Part shown: positions 1-9,901 of the stretch, in pieces | Position numbering within the stretch: position 1 is the stretch's first letter | Layout: every line of letters starts with the position of its first letter | Origin: Pseudoalteromonas viridis | GTDB lineage: Bacteria; Pseudomonadota; Gammaproteobacteria; Enterobacterales; Alteromonadaceae | Assembly (NCBI RefSeq): GCF_017742995.1 | Contig: NZ_CP072425.1 | Location: 3,348,001-3,412,000 of the forward strand | Length of the DNA: 64,000 nt | Reading direction: 5' to 3' | The notes under the pieces: generated by a model | Told to the model about the DNA's origin: nothing | What the model saw: the letters and a program-made list of their open reading frames with translations, nothing else | Databases searched by the model: none | Made by a program: the position numbers and the translations under genes

Positions 1-105
1 TCTGGCGATCACCGGGTTATTGATGGCGGAACGATTGCAAGATTCAATAATTTGTGGAAGTCTTACTTAGAGGAGCCGGCTAAAATGATGATGGCGATGC
101 GCTAA
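1..105 (+). CDS. C-terminal end of an unidentified protein (partial)
   Basis: Frame 1 is open from the first base of the window to a TAA stop and encodes the last 34 residues of a protein that begins outside the window. The tail is rich in Met (three in a row near the end) and ends in Met-Arg. Too little is visible to name the family. A strong hairpin terminator follows 32 bases after the stop, so this gene ends its own transcript and is not co-transcribed with the LON-domain gene. In other genomes ECF11 clusters often include a photolyase, but nothing in these residues shows that. Confidence 0.55.
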
Positions 106-221: not shown

Positions 222-249
222 TGATCCGTGTAGATCGCTGATGCGTATT
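222..249 (+). promoter_or_regulatory. ECF11 (RpoE/ChrR-type) promoter of the LON-domain gene
   Basis: TGATCC at 222-227 is followed after exactly 18 bases by TATT at 246, and the two bases before it make CGTA at 244-247. The same TGATC(C/T)-N16-CGTA arrangement precedes the sigma factor gene and the lipid operon. ECF11 sigma factors such as Rhodobacter sphaeroides RpoE are known to use a TGATCC-type -35 element. The start codon lies about 35 bases downstream of the -10 element. Use by the sigma factor encoded here is inferred from motif identity. Confidence 0.75.
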
Positions 250-281
250 ACAAGTCAGATTTAACTGTTTGGCCTGATTTT

Positions 282-857
282 ATGATGCAAAGCGTGCAAA
301 TGGCACTTTTTCCACTACCCGTATTTCTGCTGCCCGGTGGCGTCACCCGGTTGCGGATATTTGAACAAAAGTATTTACGTATGGTGAAAGAAGCGGGTGA
401 CGACCGTCACTTTGCGCTGAGCTTGTATAAGTCTGCGACTGAATATCAGACAGCCCCCTGGGCAAGCTGGGTGGAGATTATTGATTTTGGCTCTGCGGAA
501 GATGATATATTGACCATAGATGTGCGCTCTAAGGGCTTGCTGGATGTAACCGAGGTCTGGATGGAAGCGGACGGATTACGTCAGGCCCGCTTTGTTGAAA
601 GACCACACTGGGCGCATTGCGAGCTGGCGCCCAGATATCAGCACATCAGTGACGAGCTGCTACGTATATTCAAACAAAATCCTGAGCTTGCAGCGCTCTA
701 TCCTGAGCCGCGCTTTGACGATGCCGCCTGGGTAGCTGGACGTTTCTTGGAGATTTTACCATTTTCTCCTGAGCATAAAGAGGGCTTTTGCGAGCCAGGC
801 ACATTGCCTCAGGCACTGAAATTCCTTGATACCATTTTAACGGGTCAGGACGACTGA
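282..857 (+). CDS. LON peptidase substrate-binding (N-terminal) domain protein
   Basis: The 191-residue product opens with the LON N-domain signature (ALFPLPVFLLPGG, then RIFEQKYLRM around residues 25-35). It has no ATPase or Ser-Lys protease domain, so it is a stand-alone LON substrate-binding protein, as found in many proteobacteria; its biochemical role is unknown. ATGs at 282, 285 and 300 are all possible starts; the one at 300 begins right at the domain and none has a strong ribosome-binding site. The gene has its own ECF11-type promoter and lies just upstream of the sigma factor gene, which places it in the predicted photooxidative-stress regulon. Handling of damaged proteins is a guess. 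Confidence 0.85.
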   Translation: MMQSVQMALFPLPVFLLPGGVTRLRIFEQKYLRMVKEAGDDRHFALSLYKSATEYQTAPWASWVEIIDFGSAEDDILTIDVRSKGLLDVTEVWMEADGLRQARFVERPHWAHCELAPRYQHISDELLRIFKQNPELAALYPEPRFDDAAWVAGRFLEILPFSPEHKEGFCEPGTLPQALKFLDTILTGQDD

Positions 858-876
858 TATATTCGTCAGCATTATG

Positions 877-904
877 TGATCCAAACCTATTCGTTCGACG
901 TATA
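877..904 (+). promoter_or_regulatory. ECF11-type autoregulatory promoter of rpoE-chrR
   Basis: TGATCC at 877-882, an 18-base spacer and TATA at 901-904 (CGTA at 899-902) match the other two promoters of this cluster. It lies about 40 bases upstream of the first possible sigma start codon. Autoregulation of the sigma/anti-sigma operon is typical of ECF sigma factors. Confidence 0.78.
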
Positions 905-944
905 GGGTTTACAGAAATAAAAAATCCGTTTTTAAACTTCCATT

Positions 945-1622
945 ATGTATGGATGTGAGCTAATGATAGAAAAAAGCCGTCAGCAAAGCATCGAAACGCC
1001 ACAGGGGTCAGTTATGAAAGACGTTGCTGCTACACAAACTTCGGAGCAACGCCTGCTCAGTCCCGAACAACAGGCGCAGTTGTGCGACTGGATGCACCGC
1101 ATTGCCAAGCAAAGGGACAGAAAAGCATTCGCCTGTTTATTTAAGTGGTTCGCACCTAAGGTGTTGCACCTTGGGCGTCAGCGTTTTGGTGATGCAAGCC
1201 AGGCACAAGAGCTGTTGCAGGAGAGCATGGCTAATGTGTGGCGAAAAGCGCATCTATTTAATGCAGAGAAAGGCGCGGTAACCACCTGGATTTATACCTT
1301 GGTTCGTAATCAGTCCTTCGATATGCTCAGAAAGATGCAGACCAATCGCGAGGATAACCTCAGTGAGGACATCTGGCAGCAACATAGCAACGAACGCGAT
1401 GATAGTGCCGAATTTTCCGATCATTTGTTGGACAGGCAGCTTGTAGAGTATGTAGAAAAGCTACCTGAGGAACAAAAAAATGTCGTGAAAGGCATTTATT
1501 TTCAGGAGATGAGCCAGGAAGAGCTGGCAAATCAACTTGGCATACCTTTGGGCACCGTAAAATCCCGACTGAGACTGGCACTGGGCAAACTGAAAGCACA
1601 TATGGGGGAGCACCATGATTAA
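945..1622 (+). CDS. rpoE: ECF RNA polymerase sigma factor, RpoE/ECF11 type (partner of ChrR)
   Basis: The product shows sigma region 2 (residues about 60-130, with the ELLQESMANVWRKA helix and the TWIYTLVRNQSFDMLRK segment) and region 4 (about 165-220, with the helix-turn-helix SQEELANQLGIPLGTVKSRLRLAL). There is no region 1 or 3, so it is an ECF sigma factor. It overlaps the ChrR-type anti-sigma gene by 8 bases, the standard arrangement of ECF11 pairs that answer singlet oxygen. The longest reading starts at 945; ATGs at 963 and 1014 are alternatives, and the last gives 202 residues, closest to the usual family length. A matching ECF promoter lies just upstream, so it probably drives its own synthesis. 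Confidence 0.92.
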   Translation: MYGCELMIEKSRQQSIETPQGSVMKDVAATQTSEQRLLSPEQQAQLCDWMHRIAKQRDRKAFACLFKWFAPKVLHLGRQRFGDASQAQELLQESMANVWRKAHLFNAEKGAVTTWIYTLVRNQSFDMLRKMQTNREDNLSEDIWQQHSNERDDSAEFSDHLLDRQLVEYVEKLPEEQKNVVKGIYFQEMSQEELANQLGIPLGTVKSRLRLALGKLKAHMGEHHD

Positions 1623-2265
1623 ATATCACCCATCCGAACAAATTCTTCAATCTTATGTTCAGGGAGAACTGTGCGCGTCACTCAGTGTGGCTGTGAGTAT
1701 GCATGTGGCTATGTGCCCGCAGTGTCAGCAGCTGACTAGTCAGTTTGAAGCAAGCTGTGCGCATAGCTTTGCTGGTGAGGATATGGACCTGCAAGGCGAT
1801 GAAAACTGGGACGATTTAATCGCCCAGATAACAGAAGACACTATGCTTGCTGAAGACCCTGCACCGGCGCCTCTCGAAATAGAAGTTAAGGGAGAGCAAT
1901 TTGTACTGCCATCCAGTTTACAAAATGTCGGTCTGAGTGGCTGGTTAAAACTCGGCAAGTTATCTCGCTCCAGGTTGAATCTGGGCGATGGAAAGCTGCA
2001 TGCCAGCTTATTACACATTGAAAAAGGTGGCAGTGTGCCACAACACACCCACAAAGGGTTTGAGCTGACGTTGTTGCTTTCGGGCACTTTCAAAGATGAA
2101 ATGGACAGCTATGTGCCGGGCGATTTCATTATGCTCGACGGCGAGCATGAGCATTCACCCGTTGCAACCGAGTCATGCCTGTGCTTTACGCTGGCTGATG
2201 ATGCACTGCACTTTAGCCAGGGGCTTAGTCAGCTGTTTAACCCTATTGGCAAGTTGATTTACTAG
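1615..2265 (+). CDS. chrR: ChrR-type zinc anti-sigma factor with C-terminal cupin
   Basis: The N-terminal anti-sigma domain has His5, His30, Cys34 and Cys37. This is the same spacing, shifted by one, as the zinc ligands of Rhodobacter sphaeroides ChrR. A C-terminal cupin follows, with QHTHKGFE (His144, His146, Glu150), a GEHEH segment (178-180) and a Cys-x-Cys at 188-190, a region linked to singlet-oxygen sensing in ChrR. At 216 residues the length fits the family. The protein is expected to hold the upstream sigma factor inactive in the cytoplasm and release it under photooxidative stress. The 8-base overlap implies translational coupling, and a terminator 40 bases past the stop ends the operon. 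Confidence 0.92.
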   Translation: MIKYHPSEQILQSYVQGELCASLSVAVSMHVAMCPQCQQLTSQFEASCAHSFAGEDMDLQGDENWDDLIAQITEDTMLAEDPAPAPLEIEVKGEQFVLPSSLQNVGLSGWLKLGKLSRSRLNLGDGKLHASLLHIEKGGSVPQHTHKGFELTLLLSGTFKDEMDSYVPGDFIMLDGEHEHSPVATESCLCFTLADDALHFSQGLSQLFNPIGKLIY

Positions 2266-2304
2266 CCCAGCAGTATAATACTTTCAAATTCGTCCTTCGA
2301 GTTG

Positions 2305-2332
2305 AGCACAAAGCCCGTCTTTGTGCTTTTTT
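2305..2332 (+). terminator. Rho-independent terminator after chrR
   Basis: A 9-bp perfect stem (AGCACAAAG / CTTTGTGCT) with a five-base loop is followed by six T residues. It isolates rpoE-chrR from the downstream lipid operon, which has its own promoter. Confidence 0.88.
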
Positions 2333-2454
2333 CGTTTATAGGGTGCTGATTTCAGGCGTTTTATCAAAAATGCTGCTAATGTAGTAAAAGAGCAAGTTTA
2401 CGAACTTAGGAAGGCCAAAGCCCGGACAAAAGGTTGCTGGAACCTGGAAGAGTT

Positions 2455-2482
2455 TGATCTGATGCTGTGTAGCACACGTACA
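2455..2482 (+). promoter_or_regulatory. ECF11-type promoter of the lipid-modification operon
   Basis: TGATCT at 2455-2460, an 18-base spacer and TACA at 2479-2482 (CGTA at 2477-2480) follow the same TGATC(C/T)-N16-CGTA pattern as the other cluster promoters, with one change in the -35 element. It lies 30 bases upstream of the chosen start of the first operon gene and just after a stretch with no other gene. Confidence 0.72.
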
Positions 2483-2512
2483 ACAGAGCATAGTAGCAAA
2501 AAGGACAGAGTA

Positions 2513-2998
2513 ATGACCGAACAACCAGACTGGCTCAGTAATTTTGTAAGGATTTACAATAAGCTGGACAAAGAAACCTTACACCTGTTGGAAGAAATTT
2601 ACCATCCTGATATTCAATTTAGTGACCCGCTTCACGGGATCAGTGGATTGCAGAATCTGAATGCTTATTTTAGCGACATGTACAGCAATGTGATCAGCTG
2701 TCAGTTTGATATTCAGCACAGCTTATCTCAGGGCGATCAGGCTGCTTTATACTGGACCATGCACTACAGACACAAACGCCTGAGCAAAGGACGTGAGATA
2801 AGCGTAGAAGGTCACTCCTTTTTAAAAATACAGGATGGCAAAGTGATAATGCACCGAGACTACTTCGATGCAGGTAGTTTGCTGTATGAGCATATTCCCG
2901 TCATGGGTATGGGGGTACGCTGGCTTAAATCTCGCATTAGTGGGGAGCAAGCGTCTGGCACAGACAATGGAGGGCAGCAGACATGCCCGAAGTTTTAA
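2513..2998 (+). CDS. NTF2-like / SnoaL-fold protein
   Basis: The 161-residue product has the small alpha+beta-barrel pattern of NTF2-like (SnoaL-type) proteins: an early helix with FVRIYNKLD, then HPDIQFSDPLHGISG, and a terminal GHSFLKIQDGKVIMHRDYFD strand pair. The start at 2513 is chosen because AAGGA lies nine bases upstream and because the longer reading from 2462 would begin inside the ECF promoter. The stop overlaps the next gene by 16 bases. It is the first gene of an eight-gene operon. Family members bind small hydrophobic ligands or act as isomerases, so a lipid-related role fits, but the substrate is unknown. Confidence 0.85.
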   Translation: MTEQPDWLSNFVRIYNKLDKETLHLLEEIYHPDIQFSDPLHGISGLQNLNAYFSDMYSNVISCQFDIQHSLSQGDQAALYWTMHYRHKRLSKGREISVEGHSFLKIQDGKVIMHRDYFDAGSLLYEHIPVMGMGVRWLKSRISGEQASGTDNGGQQTCPKF

Positions 2999-3708
2999 TT
3001 ACCGGCGCCAGCTCCGGAATCGGGCTGGCACTGGCCAAGCGCTATAAAGACGCAGGATACAGAGTGCACGTTTGTGGCCGTAGTAAAGACAAGCTGCAAT
3101 CGGTTTTGCCTGAATCTGAACAAGTCCGGCATATATGCTTTGATCTTAACGATAAGACTGCCATTTTTGAGGTGGCAGACAAGCTGCCCCAGTTGGATGG
3201 GATTATTCTTAACGCCGGTGGTTGTGAATATATAGACGACGCGAAACAATTCGATTCAGCACTGTTTGAGCGCATTATCCGCGTTAATTTGATCTCAGTG
3301 GGTTACTGCCTGGATGCCTGGCTTGGCAAACTCAACAGCAGCGCGTTTTTGGTTTTTGTCAGCTCATCGGCCAGTTTTTTGCCACTGCCGCGTGCTGAGG
3401 CCTACGGCGCTTCCAAGGCCGGACTGACCTATTTGGCCAAGACATTGGATGTGGATTTGGCTGGAAGCGGTATTCAGGTAAGTGTTGTACACCCGGGTTT
3501 TGTGGATACCCCGCTTACCCAAAAAAATGATTTCCCAATGCCTTGTCAGGTAACCAGCGAACAAGCCGCGGAGCGTATCTTTCAAGGGGTAGAAAAAAAA
3601 CAGTTTGATATTCACTTTCCTCGCAGGTTTACCTACCTGCTTAAATTTTTTGGTTGGTTGCCGCATAACGTTTGGCGACATGTTGCGGCAAAATGGATAA
3701 AAAGATGA
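2983..3708 (+). CDS. Short-chain dehydrogenase/reductase
   Basis: This is a classical SDR of 241 residues: the cofactor-binding TGASSGIG is at residues 7-14, ILNAGG near 78, and the catalytic YGASK (Tyr and Lys) near 140, preceded by SSSAS. A GGAGG-like site precedes the ATG. The gene overlaps both its neighbours, the next through ATGA at 3705. An SDR is also part of the ECF11 regulon described in Rhodobacter. It probably reduces or oxidises a lipid or aldehyde with NAD(P)H, but the substrate is unknown. Confidence 0.92.
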   Translation: MPEVLITGASSGIGLALAKRYKDAGYRVHVCGRSKDKLQSVLPESEQVRHICFDLNDKTAIFEVADKLPQLDGIILNAGGCEYIDDAKQFDSALFERIIRVNLISVGYCLDAWLGKLNSSAFLVFVSSSASFLPLPRAEAYGASKAGLTYLAKTLDVDLAGSGIQVSVVHPGFVDTPLTQKNDFPMPCQVTSEQAAERIFQGVEKKQFDIHFPRRFTYLLKFFGWLPHNVWRHVAAKWIKR

Positions 3709-4958
3709 AAAAAATAGCCGTCATTGGTAGTGGCGTTTCAGGTATGGTCTGTGCACGTTTGCTCAGTACCCAACACGATGTACATTTGTTCGAAAAAAGA
3801 GACCGCCTTGGTGGCCACACTGCCACAAAAGAGGTTGAGTACCAGGGCAAAACCTATCAGGTTGATACCGGGTTTATTGTTTATAATGACCGAACTTATC
3901 CAAACTTCATTAAATTGATGGATAAACTGGGGATCCAGGGTAAGCCCACTGAAATGAGTTTCAGTGTGCACAATAAAGACACCGGGCTGGAATACAACGG
4001 CCATGACCTAAATACCTTGTTTGCCCAAAGACGTAACTTAGTTCGCCCTAAATTTTGGCGCCTGATCCGAGAAATTGTACGCTTCAATAAAACAGCAAAA
4101 CAACGCTTCGCAGAAGATGACTTTTCTGCTAACGAAACACTGGGTAGTTTTCTTGACGAGCAAAACTTCAGCGATTTTTTTGCTGAGCATTATATTTTGC
4201 CGATGGGCGCTGCTATCTGGTCTACCAGCTTACAGAAAATGAAGGAATTCGAGCTCAAATTTTTTGTCCGCTTTTTCTATCATCACGGCTTACTCAATAT
4301 CAGCGACAGGCCCCAGTGGTATGTGATCCCAGGTGGCTCTAAGCAGTATATCGCGCCGCTATTAAGTGGTCTGGAGGCCAATATTCATGTTGATGCAGAC
4401 ATCAAAAAAGTGACCCGAGAAAACGGCCGTGTTCAGTTGCACTTTGCTGATACTGTAAGCGAGTTTGATGAGGTGGTACTGGCCTGTCATAGCGATCAGG
4501 CGCTCAACTTACTCGGCGATGCCAGCGCAGAAGAAAGCAGTGTGCTGTCGGCTATTCCTTACGCAAAAAACAGCGTGATTTTACATACTGATACGGATTT
4601 GTTGCCGAAACGTCCTCTAGCCTGGGCTGCCTGGAACTACTTGCTCGACAACAATGAATCTCGCCCAGCGGCAGTAACATACAATATGAATATACTGCAG
4701 GGTATCGAGGCGCCATGCACCTTTTGTGTGACGCTGAACCAGCCGATCGATGAAGACAAGGTGATCGGTCAATATCAATACGCGCATCCCGTATTTAATA
4801 CCCAGAGCATGGCGGCCCAACAGCGTCGCAAGGAAATTTGTGGACTTCAGCATACTCATTTTGCGGGCGCCTACTGGTACAACGGCTTTCACGAAGACGG
4901 CGTGCGTAGTGCCGTTGATGTGGCAGCACGGTTTGGCATAAGCCTGGACGACCTGTAA
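3705..4958 (+). CDS. FAD-dependent amine-oxidase-like protein
   Basis: The start at 3705 (ATGA overlap with the SDR stop) places the FAD-binding motif [14 protein letters not shown] at residues 6-19, followed by [13 protein letters not shown]. The 417-residue protein resembles NAD(P)-binding Rossmann flavoproteins of the amine oxidase/phytoene desaturase class. The longer reading begins with TTG inside the SDR and is less likely. An FAD protein of this kind, a DUF1365 protein and a Cfa-type methyltransferase commonly travel together. In R. sphaeroides, ECF-controlled flavoprotein and methylase genes are linked to furan fatty acid synthesis. A role as fatty-acyl oxidoreductase is inferred. Confidence 0.9.
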
Positions 4959-5767
4959 TGAGTGATACGCAGCACAGTTCGCCTTTATATGTTGGCCAGG
5001 TCAGGCATCGCCGTTTTGCACCTGTGTTTCATGGCTTTTCCTATCGCCTTTATATGCTGTGCCTGGATCTGGATGAAGACACCTTTGTGCAAAAAGGCCG
5101 GGGACTCATTGGTCCCCAGTGGTATCGGCCCATTCGTTTTTGCCACCAAGACTATCTCAAGGGTGATCCCGGCACGCTGCAACAACGTATAAAAAACAAA
5201 GTTATAGAGCTTGGCGGGCAATGGCCCGGAGGTCGCGTAAAAGCACTGGTTCAGGGGCGTTGTCTGGGCTTATATTTCAGCCCGCTCAATGTGTACTTTT
5301 GTTACGACGAGCAGGGCAAGTGTAACCTGATGCTGGCAGAAGTAAGCAATACCCCCTGGAATCAGCGACATTATTATCTGGTCGATATCAGTCAGGCGCA
5401 CAGAACCGATAAGGTATTTCATGTGTCGCCATTTATGACTCTGGATATGCAGTATTTGTGGCGTGTTAGTGCACCGCCCGCACAAGGGGCAGGGCGGTTA
5501 CTGGTGCACATAGAAAACCACGCTACGGCCGAACATGAGTACAAGCAAAGGGGCGCTTTACAAGACGACAAGCTGTTTGATGCCACCATGGCACTCAAGT
5601 CAACACCCTTGTCGGTTAAAAGCCTGTTGGGGCTGGGCCTGTGTTTGCCCTCTATGACATTGAAAATATGCCTGGCGATTTACTGGCAGGCACTCAAACT
5701 TTGGGTGAAGCGTGTGCCTTTCATACCGCACCCCGAAACGCATTCTAACTGTAATAAAGCGAAGTGA
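4958..5767 (+). CDS. DUF1365 family protein
   Basis: The 269-residue product has the DUF1365 hallmarks: [15 protein letters not shown] at the N-terminus, a central [12 protein letters not shown], and VFHVSPFM near residue 150. The start overlaps the stop of the FAD gene by one base (TAATG). The biochemical function of DUF1365 is not established. Its nearly constant position between an FAD oxidoreductase and a Cfa-type methyltransferase suggests a step in acyl-chain modification. The coding sequence contains an internal copy of the ECF11 promoter motif. Confidence 0.93.
5164..5191 (+). promoter_or_regulatory. Possible internal ECF11 promoter upstream of the Cfa-type gene
   Basis: Inside the DUF1365 gene, TGATCC at 5164-5169 is followed after 18 bases by TATA at 5188-5191, again with CGTA (5186-5189). 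This matches the full pattern of the three intergenic promoters and points toward the methyltransferase gene about 580 bases downstream. Being inside a coding region it may be chance, and no activity can be read from sequence. Confidence 0.4.
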
Positions 5768-5770
5768 TAC

Positions 5771-7048
5771 ATGGAACAAAATAGCCAAACCATCTCTAAG
5801 CCTGCCACGGTATCCTGGTGGCATCAGTTGATGATAAATAAAGCCAGAGCCGTCATTTTTAAGTTGCTTGAAAAACTGGAACATGACCGTCTTGAGATCA
5901 TTGAAGGCAGTGAAAAAGTGGTGCTGGGGACGATGCAACCCAGACTACAAGCGACCATTTTCGTCAATGACATTAGTTTTTACCTGGACGTGCTTAAAGG
6001 AGGCGGTATTGGCGCCGCGGAGGCGTTTATTGAAGGGAAGTGGCATAGCCCGGACCTGACCAAAGTGATCCGCATGTTTGCCCGCGCGCAATCTCAGCTG
6101 GATGAACTGGAAGGCAAAATGTCCTGGCTTAGCGCCGTGAAAAATCGCCTCTTTCACTTTGGCAATCGCAACAGTGAGTCGGGCTCTAAGCAAAACATAC
6201 TGGCCCATTATGATTTAAGTAATGATCTGTATCAGGCATTTCTCGACTCGACTATGATGTATTCCAGCGCGGTCTTTGAAACTTTGGATCAGCCCCTCGA
6301 GCAGGCCCAACATAACAAGCTAAAAATCATCTGCGACAAACTAGAGCTGAGCGCAGATGATCACTTACTTGAAATTGGAACGGGCTGGGGAGCGCTGGCG
6401 TTATTTGCTGCGCAAAATTATGGCTGTAAGGTCACGACCACGACGATCTCCGACGCTCAGCACGACTTTACAGCGCAAAGAATCAAAGCGGCTGGGTTGC
6501 AGGGGCAGATAACTCTGTTAAAGCAAGATTATCGTTTACTTGAGGGTAAGTTCGACAAGCTGGTTTCCATCGAGATGATTGAGGCCGTTGGGCACAGTTA
6601 TATGCCGGGCTTTTTTGCCAAGTGCAGCAGCTTGTTAAAAGACGATGGCCTGATGCTATTGCAGGCTATTACCATCTCTGATAGTCGCTACGACCACTAC
6701 CGCAATAACGTGGATTTCATCCAGCGTTATATTTTCCCAGGCGGGTGTTTGCCATCTGTGGCTGTGATGTCACAACACCTGGCCACACAGACGGATATGG
6801 TGGTGCGAGATATAGACGATATCGGCTTGCATTATGCGCAAACGCTTAAACGCTGGCGTGTTCAGTTTGAGCAGAACTGGCAGCAGATCCGCACGTTTGG
6901 ATTTGACGAGCAGTTCAGACGTTTATGGCTCTTTTATCTGCAATATTGTGAAGGCGCATTTTTGGAGCGGGTGATCAGTACGCATCATTTAGTTGCACGT
7001 AAACCCAGATATGTTGGGGTCAATGATGAGCAATTTCTGGCTAATTAA
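5771..7048 (+). CDS. cfa: Cyclopropane-fatty-acyl-phospholipid synthase family SAM methyltransferase
   Basis: The 425-residue protein has an N-terminal lipid-binding region (about 1-130) and a class I SAM-dependent methyltransferase domain. In the latter, HYDLSNDLYQAFLDSTMMYS (about 145-165) and LEIGTGWGALALFAA (about 200-215) match the Cfa family, followed by SIEMIEAVGH. Cfa enzymes methylenate or methylate double bonds of phospholipid acyl chains at the inner membrane. Relatives in ECF11 regulons include the methylase of furan fatty acid synthesis, so cyclopropane formation is only one option. It starts four bases after the DUF1365 stop. Confidence 0.93.
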   Translation: MEQNSQTISKPATVSWWHQLMINKARAVIFKLLEKLEHDRLEIIEGSEKVVLGTMQPRLQATIFVNDISFYLDVLKGGGIGAAEAFIEGKWHSPDLTKVIRMFARAQSQLDELEGKMSWLSAVKNRLFHFGNRNSESGSKQNILAHYDLSNDLYQAFLDSTMMYSSAVFETLDQPLEQAQHNKLKIICDKLELSADDHLLEIGTGWGALALFAAQNYGCKVTTTTISDAQHDFTAQRIKAAGLQGQITLLKQDYRLLEGKFDKLVSIEMIEAVGHSYMPGFFAKCSSLLKDDGLMLLQAITISDSRYDHYRNNVDFIQRYIFPGGCLPSVAVMSQHLATQTDMVVRDIDDIGLHYAQTLKRWRVQFEQNWQQIRTFGFDEQFRRLWLFYLQYCEGAFLERVISTHHLVARKPRYVGVNDEQFLAN

Positions 7049-7538
7049 CCTCGTTATATTCCAGTCAGTGTGGTGGTTGAGTGCTTTGTTCACTCACCAG
7101 GCACTGGTTGGGGTCATAGTGTTGCTGGCGCTGCACTTTGCGTTGTCGCCAAGTCGCAAGGCTGATCTCAGTAGTCTTATGGTTTTACCGGTAGGTTTAT
7201 TGGTAGACCAAGCGCTGGCGGCAGCGGGCGTCATTCAGTTTGCCGGCAATCAGCCCTGGCTTCCTGTGTGGCTTGCTTTTTTGTGGGTGCATTTTACTTT
7301 GACGCTCAACCACAGTCTGAGCTGGTTAGGACGTTGCCATCTGGGCGTTCAGTCTTTACTCGGTGCGGTGTTTGGTGCTCTGAGCTACATTGGCGGCATA
7401 AAACTCGGTGCACTTGATAGCGCGCTGTCCGTTTTCAATTTGTTTATTGTCTTTGGCGCTGTCTGGGCGGTTGTGTTGCCTCTGGTGGTTCACCTTAACA
7501 GCCGTTTTGTCGCGAAAACAGGAGTACAACATGTTTAA
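7023..7538 (+). CDS. DUF2878 integral membrane protein
   Basis: This is a very hydrophobic protein of about 171 residues with roughly five membrane segments and no soluble domain. It fits DUF2878 in size, in the opening FWLINLVIFQSVWWLSAL, and in gene position after a Cfa-type methyltransferase. Start codons at 7023 and 7026 lie inside the end of the methyltransferase gene; the upstream in-frame ATGs would overlap further. The last bases overlap the next gene. Function is unknown; an inner-membrane partner of the lipid-modifying enzymes is an inference. Confidence 0.85.
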   Translation: MMSNFWLINLVIFQSVWWLSALFTHQALVGVIVLLALHFALSPSRKADLSSLMVLPVGLLVDQALAAAGVIQFAGNQPWLPVWLAFLWVHFTLTLNHSLSWLGRCHLGVQSLLGAVFGALSYIGGIKLGALDSALSVFNLFIVFGAVWAVVLPLVVHLNSRFVAKTGVQHV

Positions 7539-8118
7539 ACAGTTAAACGGCTTGATTTTGTCAGCTGCATTAGTTGTGGCGCCCGCAGTGGCATCGATGC
7601 AGGCGGAGGCATCAACATCAACTGAGCTATCGGAGCTTGATTTACGTGGTACGGCAGACTTGCGCTATTTGTTCTGGGATGTTTACTCAGCTGCGCTTTA
7701 CACCGGCGGTGAGGCTTATCGGGAAACTGAATACCCTCAGATACTGAGCCTGACCTACAAGCGTGACATTGAAGCGCAGGAACTGGTTGACGCAACCGAA
7801 GAGCAGTGGCAAAAACAGCGGCTTTCGCTTGATAACAGTGAACAATGGCTGCGGCAGCTTGCACAGCTTTGGCCTGACATACGCAAAGGTAATCAACTGA
7901 TCCTGTTGGTCGATGAGGACCTGCAAAGTCGCTTTTACTTCCGTCCTGAACCGCCAGCCGAGTTAAGTGCGTCGCTGTCCGAATCTGATCTTAAAGCGTC
8001 GGCGCGCTTTTTAGGGGCGATTAAGGACAGTGCTTTTGGGCCGGCCTTTTTAGGGATCTGGCTGTCCGAAAAAACCACAGAGCCTGAGCTAAGAAAGCAG
8101 CTCATAGGAAGAAGGTAA
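7531..8118 (+). CDS. Secreted chalcone-isomerase-like protein
   Basis: The start at 7531 has AGGAG ten bases upstream and gives a 195-residue protein with a signal peptide (about 1-25, VASMQAEA). The mature part contains DLRGTADLRYLFWDVYSAALYT, typical of bacterial chalcone-isomerase-like proteins, a fold that in eukaryotes includes fatty-acid-binding proteins. It overlaps the end of the DUF2878 gene by 8 bases and precedes a DUF3833 lipoprotein. A periplasmic role in binding fatty acids or lipid products is plausible, but no catalytic activity can be claimed. Confidence 0.85.
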   Translation: MFKQLNGLILSAALVVAPAVASMQAEASTSTELSELDLRGTADLRYLFWDVYSAALYTGGEAYRETEYPQILSLTYKRDIEAQELVDATEEQWQKQRLSLDNSEQWLRQLAQLWPDIRKGNQLILLVDEDLQSRFYFRPEPPAELSASLSESDLKASARFLGAIKDSAFGPAFLGIWLSEKTTEPELRKQLIGRR

Positions 8119-8122
8119 CACA

Positions 8123-8650
8123 ATGAAACTAGTTATAACTTTTCTGCTGGCGTTGGCTCTGAGCGGCTGCACTAGCAAAACGATTGCGGATTACAGCGAC
8201 ACCAAGCCAGAGCTGGCACTGGAGCAGTTTTTTGAAGGTGAGCTTACGGCCTACGGGATAGTGCTGGATCGCAGTGGCAATCTGACCCGGCGCTTTGAGG
8301 CCGATTTGATAGGCACCTGGCGCGGCAATAAAGGCGAGCTGAAAGAGTGGTTTCGCTTCGACGACGGGGAGAAGTCAACCAGAGTCTGGCAGCTCGAGAA
8401 AACCGCGGATAATCGCTACAAAGGCACCGCCGGTGATGTGATTGGGGTTGCGCAAGGCGAAACGGCGGGGTCGGCTTTGTATTGGCGATATCAGCTTGAG
8501 ATCCAGTACCAGGGCAAGCCTCTGGAGGTGACCTTAGACGACTGGATGTATTTGGTTAATGAAAAGCGCTTGTTCAACCGCACAGAAATCATTAAATGGG
8601 GTTTTAAAGTCGGGGAAGTTATCCTCATTATTGAAAAGCATGATACTTAA
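8123..8650 (+). CDS. DUF3833 lipoprotein
   Basis: The 175-residue product begins with a lipoprotein signal peptide ending in LSGC (lipidated Cys at about 16), followed by the DUF3833 pattern: LEQFFEGELTAYGIVLDRSG, then GTWRGNKGELKEWFRFDDGE. It starts four bases after the previous stop and is the last gene of the ECF-driven operon, closed by a terminator. DUF3833 proteins have no assigned function. Constant association with Cfa-type and chalcone-isomerase-like genes suggests a role at the outer membrane or periplasm in handling modified lipids. Confidence 0.9.
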   Translation: MKLVITFLLALALSGCTSKTIADYSDTKPELALEQFFEGELTAYGIVLDRSGNLTRRFEADLIGTWRGNKGELKEWFRFDDGEKSTRVWQLEKTADNRYKGTAGDVIGVAQGETAGSALYWRYQLEIQYQGKPLEVTLDDWMYLVNEKRLFNRTEIIKWGFKVGEVILIIEKHDT

Positions 8651-8704: not shown

Positions 8705-9865
8705 TCAGCTGAAGTAATATAAGCCGTAACCCACAAGCAAGGCGGGTATCGCCGAGTAAAGGGTGGCCATGGCGGCAGCTCCGGGTGCCAGCGCCAGTGC
8801 CGGGAATAGGGCATCACCGTCGTTGGCGATGGCGTTCGCAGCTAATGCATTGAAAGGTAGGACACCCTGAATATACAAGCTGGTGACCACTATCTGTGGC
8901 CCACAGCCGGGCAACATACCAATTGCAATGGCAATCAGCGGCGCAAATACTGCGTACTCAGAGAACCAGGCCGCCAGGTCCAGGCCAAACAAGGCAACGG
9001 ATAGTTCATACAGCATAAAGCTGGCCACCACCCAGGCGGTCACAAAGTGGGTGTCGTGGATGACCTTAGCCAGTTTGGAAGGGGGATCTTGTTCATCGTC
9101 CTCGGCAGTGACTTCGCGGTAGCTTTGGCCTTTTGAGGACAATGCCCAGATGGTCAGGGCGAACAGGGCCAGCGCTGCACCTGCCAGCTCAACAGGCTTG
9201 GTTAATATGCCCAGGTCCGCATTAAAAGCGATCAGCAGCGCGATAACCACACAAGGTAGCAAAACCCAGCGCCAAACAGGCTCGCTGAAGCGGATAGCGC
9301 TGGATGGCGTTTTGCACTCAATGGCGGTTCTGCTGAGTTTACTGGGTTGGCAAAATTCAGGTTTGTGCAGCATATTAACCACCAAACCACTGACGACTCC
9401 CACAGCCACACCCAGGGCGATGATAGTCAGGCCTTCGAGTGGCTTCTTAGCCAGAAGCAGGAACGCGGCATCGCCCATGGTTGCCGTCAGTACAGCAACC
9501 ACAGAGGCAAAACTTGCCTGTCCTTTGGTGAACTGAGTGACCACTATGATGGCACCGCCGCAGCCGGGTAGCGCCCCGAGTATCGCCGCCATTGAGATCT
9601 CCAATAGCGGCGACTTGGCTTTGAGATAACTGAGTTCTAACTGGGGCAGCCTGTCGATAAGAAAATAATAGATTGCCAGGGTACCGGCGACAAACACACT
9701 CACCTGAAAAAACGCGTCGGCGAGCGTGGCAATGGTTAAAGTGCGCAGAGGCTCAAATAGTAGTGCCAGGCAAATTAACATGGGCAGCAGCAGGCGCTTG
9801 TTTGCCAGTAACGAAGAGAGAGCTGCGCTGCGCTTGGTGGTTGTAGAGTAGGATTGTGAGAGCAT
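8705..9865 (-). CDS. Putative manganese/heavy-metal permease (ArsP_2-like, about 10 TM)
   Basis: The 386-residue membrane protein contains two related motifs, GALPGCGGAIIVVTQF in the first half and GMLPGCGPQIVVTSLY in the second, the internal duplication typical of the putative ten-helix heavy-metal exporter family often annotated as a putative manganese transporter. A hydrophilic loop rich in Glu and Asp separates the halves. ATG 9865 is preferred over the first in-frame ATG at 9898 because the longer start would bury a leader hairpin in coding sequence. A Fur-like box lies upstream, so metal control is likely. Substrate and direction are inferred from family only. Confidence 0.85.
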   Translation of the reverse strand: MLSQSYSTTTKRSAALSSLLANKRLLLPMLICLALLFEPLRTLTIATLADAFFQVSVFVAGTLAIYYFLIDRLPQLELSYLKAKSPLLEISMAAILGALPGCGGAIIVVTQFTKGQASFASVVAVLTATMGDAAFLLLAKKPLEGLTIIALGVAVGVVSGLVVNMLHKPEFCQPSKLSRTAIECKTPSSAIRFSEPVWRWVLLPCVVIALLIAFNADLGILTKPVELAGAALALFALTIWALSSKGQSYREVTAEDDEQDPPSKLAKVIHDTHFVTAWVVASFMLYELSVALFGLDLAAWFSEYAVFAPLIAIAIGMLPGCGPQIVVTSLYIQGVLPFNALAANAIANDGDALFPALALAPGAAAMATLYSAIPALLVGYGLYYFS

Positions 9866-9867
9866 AA

Positions 9868-9901
9868 AAAGTGCAACCGGTTGAAAACACAGTTGCACTT
9901 T
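9868..9901 (-). promoter_or_regulatory. 10-bp inverted repeat in the permease leader
   Basis: AAAGTGCAAC and GTTGCACTTT form a perfect 10-bp inverted repeat around a 14-base loop directly before the chosen start codon. On the minus strand the second arm runs into a short T-run, so it could be an attenuator, a start-masking hairpin or a protein operator. Confidence 0.5.

Follow-up and report, generated by a model that had tools for sequence, protein, structure and literature searches.

Introduction

Release of an ECF11 sigma factor from its anti-sigma factor ChrR, the signal that induces it and the chemistry of furan fatty acids are established knowledge. Here we describe an ECF11 RpoE-ChrR cluster in a stretch of 64,000 nucleotides (nt) of the Pseudoalteromonas viridis genome (RefSeq assembly GCF_017742995.1, contig NZ_CP072425.1, positions 3,348,001 to 3,412,000 of the forward strand; hereafter the window), together with the corresponding loci of its relatives. 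Two aspects are new here: first, a foreign-looking 8.5-kb cluster in the P. rubra-like clade to which the window belongs and, second, the predicted promoter site of the lipid operon, which in relatives is embedded in the DNA photolyase gene. Taking the sequences, their conservation and the contrast between linked and unlinked photolyases together, we hold it highly probable that the window carries an ECF11 regulon and that the lipid operon of its relatives has its promoter inside photolyase.

Among the closest described systems, RpoE2-ChrR of Shewanella oneidensis (SO_1986 is rpoE2) shares with the window the TGATCC and CGTATT motifs and has a Lon-domain gene, SO_1987, in its regulon, as well as the photolyase gene phrB and cfa in the operon SO_3386-SO_3374, according to semi-quantitative reverse transcription PCR (PubMed Central PMC4336711). 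It differs in that, by locus numbers, the photolyase/lipid operon lies apart from rpoE2-chrR and in that hemH2 and pgpD are additional members; the regulon section of that paper does not mention a promoter inside photolyase. In Pseudomonas syringae, the consensus of PSPTO_1043/1042 determined by chromatin immunoprecipitation sequencing (ChIP-seq) is TGATCC-N16-CGTA, with a phrB-cfa operon and katG among the targets and many of the ChIP-seq sites described as non-canonical, for example within coding regions (PMC5507510). Unlike the arrangement described below, the promoter of that operon is placed upstream of phrB (PMC5507510), and none of the Pseudomonas photolyases that we scanned contains the embedded site.

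The sigmaE-ChrR system of Rhodobacter sphaeroides, also ECF11, has the same zinc anti-sigma factor with a cupin domain, furan fatty acid genes for UfaM, UfaD and UfaO and the fasciclin gene RSP_1409 in its regulon (PMC7380195, PMC7074977). It is alphaproteobacterial, its ufa genes are split over two loci, it feeds an RpoHII cascade, and a LON-domain gene is not among the regulon members in the descriptions compared. UfaM is described as a methylase, UfaD as a desaturase and UfaO as a DUF1365 oxygenase (PMC7380195), and a review by Donohue names rpoE-chrR and the furan fatty acid genes as the core regulon (PMC6852236). Photolyase is listed as a regulon member in Shewanella (PMC4336711), P. syringae (PMC5507510) and Rhodobacter (PMC7074977), and Vibrio cholerae is reported to have a blue-light-responsive chrR-sigmaE operon with VC2303 (PMC5241685).

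An ECF11 RpoE-ChrR regulon in the window

By its sequence, the cluster is an ECF11 RpoE-ChrR regulon of the known kind with a predicted furan fatty acid (UfaD-UfaO-UfaM) operon, and the window adds one member to that kind. The initial annotation had proposed such a system with a common promoter before every unit, and this identification stands: the closest solved structure to the sigma factor is R. sphaeroides SigE, the sigma gene overlaps chrR, ChrR reaches 187.1 bits against TIGR02451 (cut-off 124.5), and the motif is the published consensus. Against the nearest NCBIfam equivalog, PRK12526, the sigma factor scores 292.3 bits, slightly under the cut-off of 301. His5, His30, Cys34 and Cys37 of ChrR and its His-x-His-x3-Glu cupin motif, previously read from the letters, do align with R. 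sphaeroides ChrR (2z2s, E = 3e-21). The open reading frames are laid out as that reading had implied, in three transcription units, each preceded by a site: the LON-domain gene (300-857), rpoE-chrR (945-2265) and an operon of eight genes (2513-8650). In this operon the genes for the flavin amine-oxidase-type protein, the DUF1365 protein and the CMAS methyltransferase occur together in the order D-O-M, which by locus number is also that of RPA2571-2570-2569 in Rhodopseudomonas palustris (PMC7380195). By analogy with the characterised relatives, the system would act in the photo-oxidative response.

A pattern search for TGATCY-N16-CGTA over both strands of the window returned the three forward-strand matches already listed, at 222, 877 and 2455, and a fourth, previously unlisted one at 5164 on the same strand, with no others. 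Every match thus falls within the cluster, as had been stated for the three. Allowing spacers of N14 to N18 over the first 17.6 kb of the forward strand again gave these four alone, all at N16, which upholds the identical spacing. Dinucleotide shuffles gave a lower chance expectation than the earlier estimate of 0.25 per 64 kb, namely 0.10 (standard deviation 0.33; 100 shuffles), and none of the 100 reached four matches. The match at 5164 is present in seven of the nine genomes of a near-identical clade, the window's own included, and in the DUF1365 gene of none of the other 52 genus loci. Because it is absent from that gene in all 52, it is probably a chance match, and we rejected it as a fourth promoter for want of conservation in the genus.

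The genome-wide search that the initial annotation had called for returned 24 strict matches on the two contigs (4.25 and 1.30 Mb), compared with about 9 expected by scaling from the window shuffles and 4 for the reversed pattern. Since the pattern has only ten fixed positions, with those 9 expected and a good part of the 24 lying inside genes, chance could be invoked for the three window sites as well; this is scarcely credible, as all matches in the window lie within the cluster and the sites recur at equivalent positions throughout the genus.

At the thresholds used, searches detected the sigma factor in 105 and the LON gene in 102 of the 108 genus genomes; G003, G014 and G071 have neither, and G078, G079 and G080 have a sigma factor without a LON match. 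We read 61 loci, namely our own and 60 of those from the 104 other sigma-bearing genomes. LON stands before sigma in 58 of the 61, and its site, about 65-80 nt upstream of the gene match, is strict in 21 of 58 loci, reads TGATCG in 27 and is weaker in 10, with a score of at least 9 of 10 in 48 of 58 real upstream regions versus 0 of 58 shuffled ones (one shuffle each). TGATCG is a common -35 form upstream of LON genes. These counts suggest that the consensus TGATCC/T may be too strict for scans. Before sigma, 48 of 61 loci have a strict N16 site and 60 of 61 have one that scores at least 8.7 of 10 when N15-17 is allowed, the remaining locus (L112) having a strict site; the lipid-operon site is strict in 60 of 61.

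A promoter-like site inside the photolyase gene of relatives

In the other 52 genus loci, about 2.3 kb separate chrR from the SnoaL-like gene that opens the lipid operon, and this interval holds a DUF523-DUF1722 gene and a DNA photolyase gene (photolyase in 52 of 52; open reading frames listed for five). In these loci and in 61 more, from further genera of the family, photolyase is immediately followed by the lipid operon, whose site falls within the photolyase reading frame as TTT GAT CCn nnn GGn nnn TTy ATh CGT Ann, which encodes FDPxGxFIR-x and in the genus lies approximately 170-210 nt upstream of SnoaL. This set of 52 was retrieved via sigma rather than via the codon pattern. The fusion of DUF523 (2-thiouracil desulfurase) with DUF1722 adjoins photolyase in the genus (L063-L114) and in many further loci.

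A degenerate codon search of the 108 genus genomes gave 89 rows and none in 16 sigma-bearing genomes, exact residues having been demanded, or in the three without sigma. All 80 linked photolyases (less than about 3.5 kb from sigma on the same contig) have an intact site, whereas none of the nine unlinked photolyases of the window clade does; the changes in the latter are CGC (2), GAC (2) and TTC (5), all synonymous. Of 295 genomes of the family, 74 matched the codon pattern and 221 did not; the loci read were those of the 61 matching genomes that belong to other genera. SnoaL follows photolyase in 61 of 61 and the site is intact in 59 of 61, a count that is biased for one base because the pattern demanded AA after the arginine codon.

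The order-wide set had no last-codon filter. Here 70 of 93 matching rows were inspected (30 automatically and 40 of the remaining 63 hand-chosen across families), and dropping L208-L215, which had already been counted or were the window's own, left 62 loci. The site is intact in 38 of 44 linked loci versus 1 of 18 unlinked ones, or 1 of 17 unlinked photolyases, since unlinked L241 has no photolyase match. Of 80 loci from named genomes, some of which may recur in the other sets (L263 is G094), the motif could be parsed in 59, and the site is intact in 17 of 25 with SnoaL downstream versus 3 of 34 others. A scan upstream of SnoaL in all loci with a SnoaL match found the embedded site in Motilimonas, Colwellia, Thaumasiovibrio, Enterovibrio, Psychromonas, Veronia, Idiomarina, Aliidiomarina, Thalassomonas, Thalassotalea, Vibrio amylolyticus and eight Pseudoalteromonas, and it is also present in Photobacterium pectinilyticum (L277), where the contig ends.

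Almost as firmly as we hold the overall explanation, we expect that in at least ten families of the window's order (f1, f6, f9, f11, f12, f14, f15, f16, f21, f25) an ECF11 promoter inside photolyase, on FDPxGxFIR, drives the furan fatty acid operon and dictates three codon positions and the residue after the arginine (K, T, N, I, M, S or an AGR-coded arginine, all ANN), and that it decays when the operon moves or the sigma system is lost. A different use of the same site, by the ECF11 sigma factor for another transcript such as a small RNA from the photolyase 3′ end, would fit its strand and position, SnoaL matches lying some 170-690 nt downstream. We consider such a use improbable, as the site was lost in nine of nine clade genomes, which still have photolyase and ECF11 but carry the lipid operon at another place. 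In addition, two Shewanella genomes, in which some 3 kb separate photolyase from SnoaL and photolyase does not contain the site (FIK replaces FIR, so the difference is not purely synonymous), have an intergenic TGATCT-N16-CGTA 213-216 nt upstream of SnoaL instead, as does the window at its own intergenic site.

Wobble bases of the embedded site

The amino acids of the motif fix many of the ten bases of the site, F, D, P, G, F, I and R being invariant in 12 aligned photolyases, and TGATCC-N16-CGTA might accordingly be a by-product of conserved FDPxGxFIR and codon bias rather than a promoter. The positions left free by the protein speak strongly against this. Across 113 linked genes, the three wobble bases that fall in the -35 and -10 elements rank 1-3 of 142 conserved codon columns (T in 113, 113 and 111 of 113), while the wobble bases between the two elements are ordinary, with 40-66% conservation. 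On a tree of 157 linked genes the same three bases change 1, 2 and 2 times, whereas each of the remaining 110 of 113 columns changes at least 19 times, with a median of 46. The strict site is intact in 148 of the 157; one of the nine exceptions, L096, encodes Arg instead of Pro and carries TGATCG-N16-CGTA, with the -35 form common upstream of LON genes.

Codon usage elsewhere in the genes predicts an intact fraction of 0.16-0.18 for linked and 0.136 for unlinked copies. As these predictions are alike, the contrast between linked and unlinked copies is not due to codon bias: the unlinked copies of the clade, with similar codon usage, have lost the site in all nine cases. In the remainder of the linked genes, CGT accounts for just 27-30% of Arg codons. 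In the unfiltered order-wide set, 39 of 44 linked versus 5 of 18 unlinked loci have A as the first base of codon 10, and in Enterovibrio, Veronia and Aliidiomarina the second Arg of FIRR is encoded by AGA or AGG, which supplies the required A. Wobble ranking, tree changes and predicted fractions together led us to reject codon bias as the source of the site, and an origin as a mere by-product of the protein motif appears very improbable.

Several observations weigh in the other direction. Five linked genomes with ChrR (G277, G240, G124, G405 and G464) lack the strict embedded site, as do 8 of the 25 named loci with SnoaL downstream (Rheinheimera, Photobacterium phosphoreum, four Pseudomonas, Oleiphilus and an unclassified gammaproteobacterium), and Photobacterium arenosum (L275), Serratia quinivorans and L233 keep the site without the lipid operon right downstream. 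In a search of 38 genomes, ChrR was over the cut-off in 19 of 20 linked genomes with an intact site, 5 of 8 linked genomes with a broken one and 0 of 10 unlinked genomes. That the three broken linked genomes of genus g76 lack ChrR too speaks for the promoter reading, but beyond the genus linkage is confounded with the possession of ChrR, as the 0 of 10 shows. Independent contrasts between linked and unlinked copies number only 4-5 and are concordant on average but not significant (median sign-test p = 0.25; the tree included L241, with its very long branch). As to novelty, intragenic ECF11-type sites had already been reported by ChIP-seq in P. syringae (PMC5507510), while in the open-licence PMC literature we found no report, at the level of titles and abstracts, of a promoter inside photolyase or of an intragenic ECF11 promoter.

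A probable cluster replacement in the window clade

Nine genomes, the window's included, have sigma factors at 97-100% identity, while every other sigma factor of the genus is at most 60% identical to them. In the window genome the DUF1722-photolyase pair is found on the second contig, C2 (437-439 kb), after a LysR-like and an alkyltransferase-like gene, and genes of these two kinds stand upstream of the cluster in three of the five listed genus loci. The genes that flank the cluster on C1 of the window genome, an E2-like gene and an ArsP_2 permease, are neighbours with no cluster between them in 13 of the 25 genus loci from beyond the clade (about 70-1000 nt apart, less than 250 nt in 5 of the 13); in the other 12, E2 is absent within 1.5 kb of the permease. 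Names given as E2-like, LysR-like, alkyltransferase-like, katG-like, folM/folE-like, HAD-like, acyl-CoA dehydrogenase-like and kelch-like here and below were assigned by eye.

Quick trees of photolyase, UfaD and ChrR were built for the window clade and 18 of the 52 other genus loci. In the photolyase tree the window clade groups with 14 main genus members (SH-like approximate likelihood ratio, SH-aLRT, 98), while in the UfaD and ChrR trees the same 14 form a clade that excludes it (SH-aLRT 100 and 98). Read most simply, these data point to the insertion of a foreign LON-rpoE-chrR-lipid cluster on C1 and to the loss of the native C2 locus except for DUF1722-photolyase, and we accordingly regard the cluster of the P. 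rubra-like clade as probably a horizontally acquired replacement on chromosome 1. The nearest named UfaD is that of P. rubra (98%). The search for a donor told against a replacement: outside the clade, none of the 120 best UfaD matches listed is more than 66% identical. The absence of a donor among these matches would fit a vertically inherited, relocated and fast-evolving copy, as would the gene order, which is unchanged apart from DUF1722-photolyase, and the fact that the genus as defined by GTDB is itself not one clade in the trees, with 4 of the 18 sampled loci outside the main 14 in all three. Vertical descent is nevertheless the less likely history, given the conflict between the photolyase tree and the other two, quick as these trees are, and the low identity of the clade's sigma factor to the rest of the genus.

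Whichever way the cluster arrived, the photolyase of the window clade appears to have left the ECF11 regulon: within 700 nt upstream of C2 DUF1722-photolyase we found no convincing ECF11 site in the nine clade genomes (best at most 8 of 10). In the region upstream of the lipid operon in the window (2263-2515), no meaningful match to a photolyase relic was found. Two adjacent genes of the photolyase/cryptochrome family lie about 47 kb before the window (G000:C1:3299666-3301386; L116, L117).

Features of the cluster and reach of the regulon

The features of the cluster and its flanks are collected in the table. For the LON-domain gene we took the ATG at 300, although the frame is already open from the ATG at 282. 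Its product matches PF02190 weakly (E = 3.7e-5; 24.2 bits, under the cut-off of 28.7) and PDB 7cay_A with E = 1.5e-10. We discarded its identification as a full Lon protease, as the protein matches only the substrate-binding domain and has neither the ATPase nor the protease domain.

Table. Features of the ECF11 cluster and its flanks (window coordinates)
Feature	Position	Strand	Basis
End of E2-like gene (lipoyl, named by eye); left flank of inserted cluster	1..104	+	Genus neighbourhood comparison
Predicted ECF11 promoter site of LON-domain gene (TGATCC-N16-CGTA)	222..247	+	Motif match, genus conservation
LON substrate-binding-domain protein without ATPase or protease domain, 185 aa	300..857	+	PF02190, 7cay_A
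Predicted ECF11 promoter site of rpoE-chrR	877..902	+	Motif match; strict at N16 in 48/61 loci
ECF11-type sigma factor; start uncertain (945, 963 or 1014)	945..1622	+	2q1z_A, E = 1.7e-34
ChrR zinc anti-sigma factor with cupin domain	1615..2265	+	TIGR02451, alignment to 2z2s_B
Predicted ECF11 promoter site of lipid operon; intergenic here, inside photolyase in relatives	2455..2480	+	Motif match
SnoaL-like protein, lipid operon gene 1	2513..2998	+	PF12680, PF07366
Short-chain dehydrogenase (SDR)	2983..3708	+	PF00106
Flavin amine-oxidase-type protein, UfaD-like (fatty-acyl desaturase of furan fatty acid synthesis; role by analogy)	3705..4958	+	PF01593
DUF1365 protein, UfaO-like (furan-ring-forming oxygenase, by analogy)	4958..5767	+	PF07103, E = 6.3e-71
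Fourth motif match, within DUF1365/UfaO-like gene; probably chance	5164..5189	+	Motif match, conservation
CMAS methyltransferase, UfaM-like	5771..7048	+	PF02353, E = 2.1e-83
DUF2878 protein	7026..7538	+	PF11086
Chalcone isomerase-like protein	7531..8118	+	PF16036
DUF3833 protein, final operon gene	8123..8650	+	PF12915
ArsP_2 permease; right flank of inserted cluster	8705..9898	-	PF11449

The description of the regulon as self-contained and complete is not supported, since a fasciclin lipoprotein and a DCC1-like gene elsewhere, on the other replicon, carry conserved sites and photolyase is absent from the cluster. These two sites outside the cluster were checked via orthologues, with 350 nt upstream examined. 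Orthologues of the fasciclin lipoprotein (P0001) occur in 20 of 45 genus genomes, and a strict site at N15-17 precedes 14 of the 20 genes, 13 of them at N16 (9 of 15 when the five window-clade genes are excluded; a second fragment, L389, was dropped). The DCC1-like protein (P0002) occurs in 38 of 45 genomes, with a strict site in 13 of 30 genes examined (30 of 39 rows had loci) and in 9 of 25 when the five of the clade are excluded. The remaining genes, save L393, have a weaker site with CGTA intact at a similar distance. Fasciclin as a conserved target fits the R. sphaeroides RpoE regulon, which is described as holding RSP_1409 and also folE2 (PMC7074977).

Further strict matches in the genome lie about 100 nt upstream of a katG-like gene (G000:C1:2964390-2964415; L011), katG being reported among the P. 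syringae PSPTO_1043 targets (PMC5507510), and about 70 nt upstream of a folM-like SDR gene that is followed by a folE-like gene (G000:C1:1409662-1409687; L005). Three on C2, at 186108 (L020), 490596 (L022) and 122844 (L019), are intergenic-looking and lie upstream of HAD-like, acyl-CoA dehydrogenase-like and kelch-like genes, respectively.

Model and implications

From sequence we infer the promoter activity of the embedded site, the inducing signal and the functions of the enzymes, and propose the following model. ChrR would hold the sigma factor until singlet oxygen or organic peroxide brings about its release, and the free sigma factor would start transcription at the TGATCY-N16-CGTA sites of the LON-domain gene, of rpoE-chrR, providing feedback, and of the lipid operon. 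The UfaM, UfaD and UfaO homologues would convert 18:1 acyl chains of the membrane into furan fatty acids, which quench singlet oxygen, and the LON-domain protein might, as a guess, aid the turnover or handling of damaged protein; additional targets elsewhere in the genome would include the fasciclin lipoprotein and the DCC1-like protein.

In the loci read from other members of the genus, the cluster has the order (LON -) rpoE-chrR - DUF1722 - photolyase - lipid operon, and the lipid promoter would lie within photolyase. FDPxGxFIR would supply part of the site at the right spacing, and three synonymous T's and the following ANN codon would complete it. Selection would keep these T's and the ANN codon for as long as the lipid operon stays downstream.

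The embedded site would be an unusually clean case of a regulatory signal within a near-invariant protein motif, with natural controls in the P. rubra-like clade, in Shewanella and in genomes from which ChrR was lost, and it may illustrate how transcription can place synonymous sites under strong selection. The prediction is a sigma-dependent start within photolyase, which would escape annotation gene by gene as well as promoter scans of intergenic regions. With its start hidden in this way, the lipid-protection operon may therefore be assigned the wrong promoter in many marine bacteria.

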